Of a stretch of 64,000 nucleotides of DNA, positions 10,241 to 15,122 are shown in pieces. The notes below the pieces were generated by a model, which saw nothing but the letters and a program-made list of their open reading frames with translations, was not told the origin of the DNA and did not search any database. The DNA is from Arcticibacter pallidicorallinus (GTDB lineage: Bacteria > Bacteroidota > Bacteroidia > Sphingobacteriales > Sphingobacteriaceae). The stretch is taken from contig NZ_PVTH01000007.1 in assembly GCF_003002875.1 (NCBI RefSeq), forward strand, positions 1 through 64,000. Direction: 5' to 3'. The stretch's first letter is position 1, and every line of letters starts with the position of its first letter. A program made the position numbers and the translations under genes.

Positions 10241-10756
10241 ATGGGCAAGAAAAATACGATAGATTCGACTCCGATCGGCAATATTATCAGCCGGTTTTCT
10301 ACAAGTCATACGACTTCGACCAATAAGCTCATTCATTACATTACCATTCCGATCGTCAGTTTTTCTGTATTGGCGATAGTTTGGGCAATTCCTTTTCCGC
10401 ATTTGGATTTTCTTGGGAAATTTAATGGCTTCGTCAATTGGGCATCTTTTCTGATTGCGGGCACGGTTTATTACTATTACCGGATGTCGCCCTTTCTGAC
10501 ATATGGTATATTGATATTAGTTTTTGCCTTCTCCGCATTAATCGTTTCTCTTGAGAAGTTTCATCTGCGGGGTGGACCGGAACTGCATATTATTCCTATG
10601 GCTCTATTGTTGCCGGCCCTTCTGGCGCAAGTAGCGGGACATCGTGGCGAGCGTACCCAGCCTGATGCTTCATCGAGCTTCAGGTCTCTGCTGGATGGAC
10701 CTCTGTGGTTGATGAATATCATCTTCAGAAAGGCCGGTCTGCTGAAAAGTCGTTAA
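10241..10756 (+). CDS. DUF962 / Mpo1-like membrane protein
   Basis: A 171-residue membrane protein. Its N-terminal motif SHTTSTNKLIHYITIPI (residues 22-38) carries the His and Asn residues typical of the DUF962/Mpo1 family, whose yeast member is an Fe(II)-dependent dioxygenase that shortens 2-hydroxy fatty acids. About four hydrophobic segments follow, and a second His lies in GPELHIIPMALLLP near residue 112. The bacterial role is not established; fatty acid alpha-oxidation is possible but inferred. It stands alone between a terminator and the receptor gene. Confidence 0.75.
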   Translation: MGKKNTIDSTPIGNIISRFSTSHTTSTNKLIHYITIPIVSFSVLAIVWAIPFPHLDFLGKFNGFVNWASFLIAGTVYYYYRMSPFLTYGILILVFAFSALIVSLEKFHLRGGPELHIIPMALLLPALLAQVAGHRGERTQPDASSSFRSLLDGPLWLMNIIFRKAGLLKSR

Positions 10757-10785
10757 CAATTAGTTAATAGTTTGCTTACGTATTG

Positions 10786-10830
10786 GTAATTAACCTCTAA
10801 CACCAGGTTAACACTGTGGTAATACTTTTG
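10786..10830 (+). promoter_or_regulatory. Promoter with four 11-bp-phased direct repeats
   Basis: Four heptamers stand exactly 11 bp apart: GTAATTA (10786), CTAACAC (10797), TTAACAC (10808) and GTAATAC (10819). The last runs into the -7 box TACTTTTG (10823-10830). A weaker fifth copy, CTTACGT, lies at 10775. Heptamer plus 4-nt spacer with 11-bp phasing is the architecture bound by OmpR/PhoB-type response regulators. The GTG start of the receptor gene is 22 nt downstream. Regulator identity is inferred only from architecture. Confidence 0.6.
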
Positions 10831-10852
10831 TGATGATAAAAACAACGCAAAA

Positions 10853-13693
10853 GTGAAAAGACTATTTGATTTAAAGTTTACAGCACTCTTTATTTTTTTA
10901 ACACTCCATGTGTTTTCGGTTGCAGGACAGTCTGTTGGTAAGATTGCCGGAAAGGTGACTGATGGGAAGACGGGTGAGGCGCTAATAGGCCTGACAGTAA
11001 AAGTGCAGGGCAGTACGAAGGGTACTTCTACCGACATTGAAGGACGCTACAGTATCTCTGGCTTAACAGCAGGGAAACATACTTTGGTATTTTCTTATGT
11101 AGGGTATTCCAGTAAAAGTGTTTCTGACATCGTGGTGAAAGCCTCTCAGGTGACTAATGCAGACATTGTGATGGAAGAGTCTGAAGGAAATAGCTTGAAC
11201 GAGGTGGTAATTACGGCTTCTGCAAAGCAGGAGAGCGTAGGTGCACTCTACGCTATGCAAAGGGTAAGCGTAAGGGTTTCAGATGGTATATCTGCAGAAC
11301 AGATCCGGAGGTCACCTGACAGAAATACGAGTGATGTATTGAAGAGAGTAAGTGGTGCCAGTATACAGGAAAACAAGTTCCTTTTAATCCGCGGCTTAAG
11401 CGACCGTTACAATACAACGCTTTTGAATAACGCACCATTGCCGAGTTCGGAGCCAGACCGTAAAGCTTTTTCTTTTGATATTATTCCTTCAAACCTGGTG
11501 GATCAAATCGTTGTGAATAAGACGGCTGCTGCTGATTTGCCCGGCGATTTCGCCGGAGGCGTTATTCAGATCAAAACCCGGGATTTTCCTGAGCAGGAGT
11601 TGGTTAGCCTGAATTATAGCGCGTCTTATAACACGCAATCTACTTTCAAGGACTTTAAAGGCGGAAAAAGAGGGGGCCTGGATTTATTAGGCTTTGACGA
11701 CGGTTTAAGAGATATGCCATCGTCTTTTCCTTCGAACAGAACGAACTACGTCAATTCGTCGCTCGATCAGCGGGTGGCTTATACCAAGGCATTCAAAAAT
11801 AACTGGGGTGTAGAGAACTTTGGAGCTGCATTGCCTACGCAGAGTTTGCAGTTTACTTATGGAAATTCTTATACGTTGGAGAATGCCAATAAGTTTGGTT
11901 TCATCGCCTCTTTATCTTATCGTAACGGTAATACTATTACTGACCAGACCAGAGCAGATATTGAGCAGATTGGTGATGAGTCTTTTAGCTTTAAGGATGA
12001 TGTATATAAGAACAGCATTAACGTTGGCGGCCTGGCTAATTTTGCGTATGCATTCAAGAATTCAAAGATCGCCTTTAAGAATATCTACAACCGCGTATTC
12101 GATGATGCTTATACGAGCCGGGTGGGAGTTGCTTTGGAAGAGCCAAACTTCGACAACCGGAATTCTCAGTTCCAATTGTTACAAAAGTCGTTACTGAGTT
12201 CCATCCTTGAAGGTGAGCATTCTTTTGAAAATAGGCGGAAGCTAGATTGGAACGCTTCATTCAGCTCCAGTAACCAGGATCAGCCTGATCTCAGGAGGAT
12301 TTTTTACTCAAGGCCCAGTGGTTCTTCGGAGCCTTTCAAAGCCAGTGTTAACACCGGCTCTGCCAGTACAAAAAACGCTGGTCGATTCTATTCGGATTTG
12401 CAGGATTACGTGTATGCGGGTGCTGTAAATTATACTCATCCTTTCAAGCTTGGGAAGCTCGACCAAATCGTTAAAGTAGGTGCTTTATCTCAATACAGGA
12501 CCCGGGATTTCTCTGCACGGGAGTTGGGTTATGTAAGAACAACCGCAAATGCGGAGAGTGAGAGTTACTTGTCACTACCGCAGGAAGAGATATTTTCCCC
12601 CGGAAACATCAGCAGGACCGGATTTATATTTGATGAGATCACCAATCCGAGTAATACATATGACGCGAACGTACTGCTGAATGCGGGTTATGTGATGTTA
12701 ACTAATGAGCTGGCTCAGAAATGGAAGCTCAACTGGGGTTTGAGGGTTGAATCTTACCACGAGAAGCTGAATTCAGCAACGGTATTGGGAACGCCGATAA
12801 CCGTTGATAACAACTATGTTGATTTACTGCCATCGGCTAATTTGATTTTCAGCATCGACGATAAGACGAACCTGCGTGCAAGTTACTCCAATACTGTTGC
12901 GCGGGCTGAATTTAGAGAGCTCGCTCCGTTTTCATTCTTTGACTTCGAGAGCAACAACGTGATTATTGGTAATAATAACTTGAAAAGATCCCGAATAAAC
13001 AACTTCGATCTTCGCTTTGAACACTTTTCTCCGGGCGGTCAGATCTTCTCATTAACAGGTTTTTATAAGCAATTTAAAAATCCGATTGAGCAGGTATTCA
13101 ATCAAGGGACTGTTGCAGCAAGCAAGGCAGCATCATTCCAGAATGCCACCAAAGCGACGTTATTTGGAGCGGAGCTGGAGATTCGTCAGCGTTTGAGTTT
13201 TATTAAGGAAGCTGACTTTTTTACCAACACGTCGGTCTATGCCAATCTGGCCATCATGAAGTCTGACGTGAAACTTGACAGACAACTGTTTGCCAATATC
13301 AATGAAAGCCGTGCACTACAAGGGCAGTCCCCTTATCTGATCAACGGCGGTATCCAGTACAATGATAATAAATGGGGGTTTAATGTGCTGTATAATCGAA
13401 TTGGAAGACGTATCAACATCGTTGGGTTTGGCAGATATGAGGCCAGCGGTTTCGTGTACGAATATCCCGACATCTATGAGAATCCAAGAGACGTGATCGA
13501 CTTGCAGATATCTCGTAAATTATTTAGCAATCGTCTTGATGCTAAAATAAATGTCGGTGATCTATTAAATCAAAAGGCTGTTCTTTATCAGGATAACAAT
13601 AATGATAAAAAGTTTAATCCAAGCTCGGACCAGTCGATACGCACTATCAAATACGGCTCTAACTTCAGCTTGTCATTGGGTTATAATTTTTAA
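10853..13693 (+). CDS. TonB-dependent receptor with carboxypeptidase-D-like N-terminal domain
   Basis: Outer-membrane active transporter of 946 residues. Signal peptide about 1-25 (ends VFSVAGQ); carboxypeptidase regulatory-like beta-sandwich about 29-90 (KIAGKVTDGKTGEALIGLTV); plug domain about 150-250 with LLIRGLSDRYN and DFAGGVIQIKTRD; 22-strand barrel to the C-terminal aromatic (LSLGYNF). It is not a SusC, since no SusD gene is adjacent. A beta-helix lipoprotein gene follows 76 nt downstream and probably encodes its surface partner. The start is GTG at 10853. The substrate is unknown; the repeats in the promoter suggest control by nutrient stress, perhaps phosphate. Confidence 0.9.
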   Translation: MKRLFDLKFTALFIFLTLHVFSVAGQSVGKIAGKVTDGKTGEALIGLTVKVQGSTKGTSTDIEGRYSISGLTAGKHTLVFSYVGYSSKSVSDIVVKASQVTNADIVMEESEGNSLNEVVITASAKQESVGALYAMQRVSVRVSDGISAEQIRRSPDRNTSDVLKRVSGASIQENKFLLIRGLSDRYNTTLLNNAPLPSSEPDRKAFSFDIIPSNLVDQIVVNKTAAADLPGDFAGGVIQIKTRDFPEQELVSLNYSASYNTQSTFKDFKGGKRGGLDLLGFDDGLRDMPSSFPSNRTNYVNSSLDQRVAYTKAFKNNWGVENFGAALPTQSLQFTYGNSYTLENANKFGFIASLSYRNGNTITDQTRADIEQIGDESFSFKDDVYKNSINVGGLANFAYAFKNSKIAFKNIYNRVFDDAYTSRVGVALEEPNFDNRNSQFQLLQKSLLSSILEGEHSFENRRKLDWNASFSSSNQDQPDLRRIFYSRPSGSSEPFKASVNTGSASTKNAGRFYSDLQDYVYAGAVNYTHPFKLGKLDQIVKVGALSQYRTRDFSARELGYVRTTANAESESYLSLPQEEIFSPGNISRTGFIFDEITNPSNTYDANVLLNAGYVMLTNELAQKWKLNWGLRVESYHEKLNSATVLGTPITVDNNYVDLLPSANLIFSIDDKTNLRASYSNTVARAEFRELAPFSFFDFESNNVIIGNNNLKRSRINNFDLRFEHFSPGGQIFSLTGFYKQFKNPIEQVFNQGTVAASKAASFQNATKATLFGAELEIRQRLSFIKEADFFTNTSVYANLAIMKSDVKLDRQLFANINESRALQGQSPYLINGGIQYNDNKWGFNVLYNRIGRRINIVGFGRYEASGFVYEYPDIYENPRDVIDLQISRKLFSNRLDAKINVGDLLNQKAVLYQDNNNDKKFNPSSDQSIRTIKYGSNFSLSLGYNF

Positions 13694-13749
13694 TTAACAA
13701 TTTGATAATAGTGCCTTTAACCTAAGGCAACTTTAACAGAATACTTTTG
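13694..13749 (+). promoter_or_regulatory. Promoter with phased repeats before the beta-helix gene
   Basis: With the same register as the promoter at 10786, heptamers fall at 13694 (TTAACAA), 13705 (ATAATAG), 13716 (TTTAACC), 13727 (GCAACTT, poor) and 13738 (AGAATAC), again 11 bp apart. They end in the -7 box TACTTTTG at 13742-13749. Both promoters share the end AATACTTTTG. The repeats here are weaker than at 10786. Confidence 0.45.
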
Positions 13750-13769: not shown

Positions 13770-15122
13770 ATGAAAAAACTGAAATTTTTAGTGATTGCCA
13801 TGTTTGGGTTCGCTACTATCCTTACTTCTTGCAGTAGCGATGATAATGGAGACGAACTGATTGAAGTTGAACCTGCGACATTGTCTGGGGATATCAAAAC
13901 CAATACTACTCTAACAGCAGATAAGGCTTGGACGCTGAGTGGTTTGGTGAGAATAATGGATGGTGCTACCCTTACCATTGAGCCGGGAACAACCATAAAG
14001 GGAGACAAGGCTACTAAGGCAGCGCTAATAGTTGAAAGAGGAGGGAAGATTAATGCCGCAGGTACAGCGAGCAAACCAATTGTTTTCACGTCTAACCAGC
14101 TGGCCGGACAACGAGAGATTGGCGATTGGGCAGGTGTAATCATTTGTGGAAAGGCTCCAGTTAATGTTGCCGGTGGAACTTCTCAATACGAATCAGGAAT
14201 TTTGGGAGCTGATGTTGCTAACTATGGTGGTACGGATGCTAATGATAACTCAGGTATTTTGAAGTACGTTCGTATTGAGTACGCGGGTATTGCTTACGGT
14301 ACTGACAGAGAAATAAACAGTTTAACCCTGGCAGGTGTTGGATCGGGTACCGTTCTGGAAAACATTCAGGTATCTTTTGGTGGCGACGACGGGTTTGAGT
14401 TCTTCGGAGGAACTGTAAATGCAAAGAATCTTATTGCCTACAGATGTACTGACGATGATTTTGACTTTGAATTTGGATACAGCGGTCGTATTCAGTACGC
14501 CATTTCTATTAAGGATCCTTTGGTGTTTGACAACTCCTCTAGTGGTGCCTCAAACGGAATTGAGTGTGATAACGGAAGTACAGTTGATGTAACTCCGGTG
14601 AACAGACCAGTCCTATCCAACTTTACGTTTATCGGTCCGGGGGAAGGTGCAAATGCTAAGCATAACTCCGGTGTGATTTTTCGGAAGGGAACCGCGTTTG
14701 TGTTGCGCAACTCGATTATCATTGACCACTTAAAAGCTGGTTTTGAGCTTGCAACTCCTAAAGCAGGTGATCGTTTATTCGGCGGTGAGTCTGAATTTAA
14801 GAACAATTTGGTATTTGCCAATGGTGCTGCTTTTAAAGCAAATGACGCCGGCGCTAACTTTACTACTAATCAGGCGCTTGCTACCTTTGTTACATCAGCT
14901 GCAAACGGCAACGTAGCCTTAGCAAATGCTGCTGCTGCGGGAATTACGAGCACTAGCCTTACAGCTCCAAACTTGCTGCTTACGAGTGCGTCGCCTGCGA
15001 AGACCGGCGCTGATTTTACTGGTCTGACGGGGTTTGAAGCTGTTGCTTTCAGAGGAGCTATGAATACGACAGACTGGACGTCTGGCTGGGCGAGCTGGAC
15101 TTCTGGAACTAACGTCTACTAG
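13770..15122 (+). CDS. Beta-helix lipoprotein paired with the TonB-dependent receptor
   Basis: A 450-residue lipoprotein. The signal sequence ends at Cys21 (ATILTSC), followed by SSDDNGDE; an acidic run right after the anchor Cys is the surface-export signal known in Flavobacterium, so the protein probably faces outward. The body has repeated short hydrophobic strands with G, N and D turns (ATLTIEPGTTIKGD, RGGKINAAGTASKP, DDGFEFFGGTVNAKNLI), as in right-handed parallel beta-helices. Such proteins have sometimes been labelled 'multidrug transporter' in databases, which the sequence does not support. Partner and promoter context suggest capture of the receptor's substrate. No catalytic motif is obvious. 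Confidence 0.75.
   Translation: MKKLKFLVIAMFGFATILTSCSSDDNGDELIEVEPATLSGDIKTNTTLTADKAWTLSGLVRIMDGATLTIEPGTTIKGDKATKAALIVERGGKINAAGTASKPIVFTSNQLAGQREIGDWAGVIICGKAPVNVAGGTSQYESGILGADVANYGGTDANDNSGILKYVRIEYAGIAYGTDREINSLTLAGVGSGTVLENIQVSFGGDDGFEFFGGTVNAKNLIAYRCTDDDFDFEFGYSGRIQYAISIKDPLVFDNSSSGASNGIECDNGSTVDVTPVNRPVLSNFTFIGPGEGANAKHNSGVIFRKGTAFVLRNSIIIDHLKAGFELATPKAGDRLFGGESEFKNNLVFANGAAFKANDAGANFTTNQALATFVTSAANGNVALANAAAAGITSTSLTAPNLLLTSASPAKTGADFTGLTGFEAVAFRGAMNTTDWTSGWASWTSGTNVY

Follow-up and report, generated by a model that had tools for sequence, protein, structure and literature searches.

The window, a 64,000-nucleotide stretch of Arcticibacter pallidicorallinus DNA, contains a gene for a TonB-dependent receptor that begins with a GTG codon and is preceded by a tandem array of TTAACA-like units. 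It is followed by the gene for a beta-helix lipoprotein, the receptor's conserved partner. The features of the locus are listed below; unit distances are given relative to the first position of the -7 box, and the units are named for the function that we propose for them.

10241 to 10756, forward strand: gene of an Mpo1-like membrane protein (match just below the Pfam cut-off), co-oriented with and upstream of the receptor gene
10753, forward strand: putative Pho-box unit 1, TTAACA (-70)
10764, forward strand: putative Pho-box unit 2, TTAATA (-59)
10775, forward strand: putative Pho-box unit 3, CTTACG (-48)
10786, forward strand: putative Pho-box unit 4, GTAATT (-37)
10797, forward strand: putative Pho-box unit 5, CTAACA (-26)
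10808, forward strand: putative Pho-box unit 6, TTAACA (-15)
10753 to 10818, forward strand: the six units together, an 11-bp in-phase array
10819 to 10825, forward strand: GTAATAC, the seventh unit in phase, which overlaps the -7 box
10823 to 10830, forward strand: -7 box TACTTTTG (consensus TAnnTTTG); its first base lies exactly 15 nt past that of the last TTAACA unit
10835, forward strand: predicted transcription start (+1), if the -7 box occupies -12 to -5 (PMC9723704)
10853 to 13693, forward strand: TonB-dependent receptor, 946 amino acids, GTG start, domains CarbopepD_reg_2, Plug and OMP_b-brl_3
13694 to 13749, forward strand: weaker in-phase lattice before the beta-helix gene (TTAACA at 13694, ATAATA at 13705, TTTAAC at 13716)
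13742 to 13749, forward strand: second -7 box TACTTTTG, before the beta-helix gene; the last unit of that lattice begins 26 nt ahead of it
13770 to 15122, forward strand: beta-helix lipoprotein, 450 amino acids

Among named relatives, Arcticibacter eurypsychrophilus is the nearest (77% identity), and relatives carry similar promoters ahead of the beta-helix gene. The beta-helix protein has no sequence relative in the PDB. In a fold search, nearly all matches were beta-helix enzymes or tailspikes and none reached E<=0.001, and therefore no substrate can be read from these matches. A search of 10600-11000 against Rfam returned no credible family. Downstream of the pair, between 15171 and 18005, lie genes for a LiaF-like membrane protein, a sensor of the His_kinase family and a LytTR response regulator, in that order.

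The earlier note on this DNA had described four to five heptamers at 11-bp phasing, GTAATTA (10786), CTAACAC (10797), TTAACAC (10808), GTAATAC (10819) and a weaker CTTACGT (10775). All five were found at these positions and the phasing is exact, whereas the count was too low: TTAACA at 10753 and TTAATA at 10764, both absent from that note, extend the lattice upstream, so that seven in-phase units span 10753-10825 and the 5' end overlaps the stop codon of the upstream gene. The last heptamer overlaps the -7 box, as had been claimed. It may be an extended -7 element and not an operator unit; in the promoters of DUF47 genes this seventh unit is less regular. The unit at 10775 is by itself a poor match, and orthologues keep CTTAC, GTTAC or CTCAC there. 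Since the region is intergenic and AT-rich, a functionless chance repeat might be considered, yet the array resists that explanation. The seven units score 32 of 35 against TAAYA and make up the top array of the 64-kb window over periods of 6-22 on both strands, a score that none of 100 Markov-simulated windows and none of 20,000 local shuffles attained. As the lattice is also conserved among orthologues, chance has already been refuted as an explanation and keeps practically no probability.

Conservation was followed in relatives with the -7 box as the fixed point. Most of 15 relatives have units at -15, -26, -37, -48, -59 and -70, and the six-unit lattice is kept in most of about 85 receptor orthologues of the family (about 80 genomes); outside the family, a clear full lattice is missing from many receptor orthologues. 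Pairs of TTAAYA/STAACA exactly 11 bp apart occur upstream of receptor (20), PstS (13), DUF47 (23) and regulator (20) genes, against an expectation of 0.03-0.09, and no such pair at 8-10 or 12-16 bp was found upstream of these four gene types. Moreover, 18 of 28 DUF47 promoters fit all 18 scored positions, which comprise both boxes and the -7 box at fixed spacing.

The same box stands before phosphate genes of the A. pallidicorallinus genome, which was searched as a whole (4.1 Mb in 23 contigs). A search with the lattice pattern also found it before a DUF47-PitA gene pair, an OmpR-family regulator gene and the gene of a PstS-like protein; the DUF47-PitA pair sits directly behind a PhoR-like kinase gene, and the pstS operon comprises pstSCAB and the alkaline phosphatase gene phoA. 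With TAAYA-N6-TAAYA-N9-TAnnTTTG, only DUF47-PitA, the receptor and pstS were matched with zero or one mismatch, and each of the remaining 21 matches had two mismatches, which is the control level. Two units alone are not predictive, because TTAACA-N5-TTAACA with up to two mismatches gave 523 matches, near the background of 429 in the control, and most of the other two-unit matches fall within genes. The distance from the lattice to the -7 box is equal at the orthologous receptors, DUF47-PitA and pstSCAB-phoA, the gap between the last unit and TAnnTTTG being 9 nt. The regulator gene has the same box at another spacing from its promoter.

A profile, R1, was trained on the receptor, DUF47 and PstS promoters. 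It ranked the receptor highest in this genome, followed by DUF47-PitA, the regulator (which lay outside the training set) and pstS. In 41 genomes it gave 38 matches at E<=1e-3, 34 of them upstream of receptor, DUF47, PstS or regulator genes; the training set included three sites of this genome and many DUF47 and receptor sites, and therefore only the matches at the PhoB-like gene, at most PstS genes and at further genes are independent. Other R1 matches in the 41 genomes lay before several genes of ECF sigma factors, three DUF2490 genes, a PHO4 transporter gene and the genes of three phosphoesterases of calcineurin-like or purple-acid type.

Several observations were made in passing. Pho-box-like sites precede phosphoesterase or PHO4-type transporter genes at four loci of relatives. 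The genes of DUF2490 outer-membrane proteins have strong Pho boxes in three genomes; two of these boxes are joined by a -7-like element at the usual spacing, and such proteins are candidate new members of the Pho regulon. Sigma-factor genes of ECF type are preceded by Pho-box-like sites at five loci, with Pfam sigma-70 domains confirmed for three; they could pass phosphate limitation on to other outer-membrane uptake clusters. At the PhoB-like regulator genes of relatives, TTAACA-N5-TTAATA occurs too, but the distance between it and a distal TACnnTTTAG-like box is different, which suggests a different promoter geometry for autoregulation of the regulator.

A. pallidicorallinus encodes an OmpR/PhoB-family regulator together with the PhoR-like kinase. 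We call the regulator PhoB-like because the models that score it best are those for PhoB, although its scores against the PhoB equivalog models, TIGR02154 and NF053854, miss the curated cut-offs (222.9 versus 296.2 and 219.9 versus 270). Elsewhere in the class, in other families, the pair of receptor and beta-helix genes adjoins or lies near regulator and kinase genes at four loci, in one of which regulator and kinase are adjacent to each other. In relatives the pair is also found near PstS at two loci, one of which has DUF47-PitA nearby as well. In addition, the window's pair has the domain make-up and gene order of a low-phosphate receptor and FII lipoprotein pair of the PUSIV type. The PUSIV/PhoBR cluster of Flavobacterium johnsoniae (Fjoh_0543-0546) holds a receptor/lipoprotein pair that rises by 8-10 log2 units at low phosphate (PMC8115612), so that the pair at hand, which the earlier note had regarded as uncharacterised, is not wholly so.

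Because the array is shared with phosphate genes, is conserved, lies in such gene neighbourhoods and has a counterpart system that is induced in F. johnsoniae, we consider it very probable that it is a Bacteroidota Pho box bound by the PhoB-like regulator, which would activate the receptor and the beta-helix lipoprotein at low phosphate. We propose to define this box as TTAACA-N5-TTAACA, placed 9 nt before TAnnTTTG. The earlier note had read a heptamer plus a 4-bp spacer as the layout of PhoB/OmpR-type regulators, and its occurrence at the receptor orthologues, DUF47-PitA, pstSCAB-phoA and the PhoB-like gene bears this out. That note had made its proposal depend on conservation upstream of orthologues and on presence at pst and other Pho genes, both of which were found. 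The box is nearer to TTAACA repeats than to the CTTAACCT repeats of cyanobacterial Pho boxes, which that note had named for their phasing; the PhoP boxes of Bacillus subtilis are likewise TTAACA-like. Where it had spoken of nutrient stress, perhaps phosphate, the shared boxes now favour phosphate as the probable signal, which is sharper. The layout as such would also suit a different OmpR-family regulator that recognizes TTAAC-like repeats and answers to something other than phosphate, given that others of this family, for example PhoP of Mycobacterium tuberculosis, are described as binding direct 7-bp repeats with a 4-bp spacer (PMC4832192). However, the same box precedes pstSCAB-phoA, DUF47-PitA and phosphoesterase genes, and a non-phosphate regulator is accordingly very improbable.

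On the Pho-box reading, the phosphorylated PhoB-like regulator, of the OmpR family, would bind the 11-bp direct repeats in tandem, and the six units would most likely hold three tandem dimers. The bound promoter-proximal box would take over the missing -33 contact, and the regulator would recruit RNA polymerase to the TAnnTTTG box 9 nt downstream; in other Pho promoters, a Pho box stands in for the -35 element. Scarcity of phosphate would thus switch on the receptor and the beta-helix lipoprotein, by activation and not by repression, and the pair would presumably take up a phosphorus compound. In mapped promoters of Flavobacterium, the TAnnTTTG box occupies -12 to -5 (PMC9723704), and transcripts from the Pho promoter should therefore begin at about 10835.

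A second structure joins the -7 box to the start codon:

10823 to 10832, forward strand: 5' arm, UACUUUUGUG, of a stem; falls on the -7 box
10846 to 10855, forward strand: 3' arm of the stem, CGCAAAAGUG, ending in the GTG start codon

The two arms pair and cover the GUG start. Among orthologues, the arms change together, as in TTTGCCTTTA/TAAAGGCAAA, CTTTTGCTGA/TCAGTAGAAG and TTGAGAA/TTCTCAA. In 46 dissimilar orthologues the mean pairing of own arms was 15.07, which none of 1000 swaps reached, against 11.91 for swapped arms. In an alignment of 56 sequences the covariation score was 0.265, compared with 0.154 (sd 0.013) in shuffles, none of 500 of which reached it, and with 0.05-0.10 for slid partners; 69 cells versus 36 had changed on both sides of the stem. 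These shuffle tests are inflated by relatedness, and the registers are set by start-codon class. A first strand test that allowed all mismatches counted 30 G-U and 23 A-C pairs; among single interior non-Watson-Crick pairs, which are few, seven were G-U and none A-C when read on the coding strand. Of 86 receptor orthologues, 81 start with GTG or TTG. If the 5' arm is included, the folding energy is -9.8 kcal/mol (z -5.8); without that arm it is -0.9. Orthologues whose upstream frame has the same orientation as the receptor gene have stronger stems (p=0.025, by a crude classification), and in about a fifth of orthologues the stem is weak or shifted. Taken by itself, the stem is well supported by sequence comparison. 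Other exact copies of the stem pattern in the genome are at about chance level (three sites in all, versus one in the control).

The stem was also considered as a general by-product of TAnnTTTG next to an A-rich start context. No stem signal appeared in 20 DUF47 promoters, which have the same boxes and ATG starts, and 18 other box/start pairs scored at most 12, versus 18-20 for two receptors; this explanation was rejected.

As to what the stem is for, our best guess, to which we give about an even chance, is a lock against read-through that is added to the Pho switch and compatible with it. The -7 box would serve as the 5' arm and the GTG would lie within the 3' arm. Transcripts from the Pho promoter, starting near 10835 and lacking the 5' arm, would be translated, and those reading through from upstream would fold the stem and stay silent. 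The Mpo1-like gene is a possible source of such read-through; no terminator-like site was found between it and the receptor gene. The lock is favoured by the covariation, the preference for own arms, the lack of a stem in DUF47 promoters, the G-U bias on the coding strand, the non-ATG starts, the dependence of folding on the 5' arm, the stronger stems behind co-oriented genes and a precedent in phage T4 (PMC3014915). Against it must be set the relatedness that inflates the shuffles, the registers that follow start-codon class, the fifth or so of weak or shifted stems and the small number of pairs in the strand test. The wobble bias and the pairing of the start codon would suit any sense RNA that contains both arms, so the stem might instead work in the normal mRNA, if this started upstream of 10823, and control translation or stability of the receptor message. 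That is unlikely, since in the DUF47 and pstS promoters TAnnTTTG keeps the same fixed spacing to the Pho box, which marks it as an untranscribed -7 element. If the lock holds, the -7 box of a phosphate-starvation promoter doubles as the locking strand and the receptor is translated only from transcripts of its own promoter. This reading as a whole, a two-layer switch that is proof against read-through and shared throughout the family, we advance tentatively, as slightly short of an even chance.

Low-phosphate responses of Bacteroidota are already known from transcriptomics and proteomics. With the box TTAACA-N5-TTAACA-N9-TAnnTTTG, the regulon can be predicted for further genomes of the group; it already singles out phosphoesterases, ECF sigma genes and outer-membrane proteins of the DUF2490 type. 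Should the stem act as proposed, it would be a simple means to shield an outer-membrane receptor from stray transcription.

In the literature searched, no operator sequence was found described for a Bacteroidota Pho box or for the PUSIV cluster of F. johnsoniae. The Pho boxes of PhoB/PhoP regulators are 11-nt direct repeats, built on CTGTCAT in Escherichia coli and on GTTCACC in Streptomyces (PMC4415409). Like them, the present array has at least two 11-nt direct repeats upstream of the downstream element of the promoter, and the same box stands before pst and phosphatase genes. Tandem head-to-tail binding, as at PhoB/PhoP boxes, is predicted here as well. Unlike the boxes of E. coli and Streptomyces, the present array uses a TTAACA-like unit, keeps TAnnTTTG at a fixed 9-nt gap and has six or seven units. 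In domains and gene order the locus resembles PUSIV of F. johnsoniae, in which a receptor with Plug, CarbopepD_reg_2 and OMP_b-brl_3 is likewise followed by a lipoprotein of the pectin-lyase fold. The F. johnsoniae pair adjoins phoBR, and a similar order is seen in relatives of the window, whereas the A. pallidicorallinus pair is not beside its regulator. The proposed lock recalls gene e of phage T4, where an inhibitory stem draws its 5' strand from the late promoter region (PMC3014915). Unlike gene e, the present case is a chromosomal phosphate gene with a GTG or TTG start at the end of the 3' arm, and its lock is predicted. In both, the stem that hides the start has a promoter element as its 5' arm, and transcripts from the nearby promoter, here by prediction, lack that arm.
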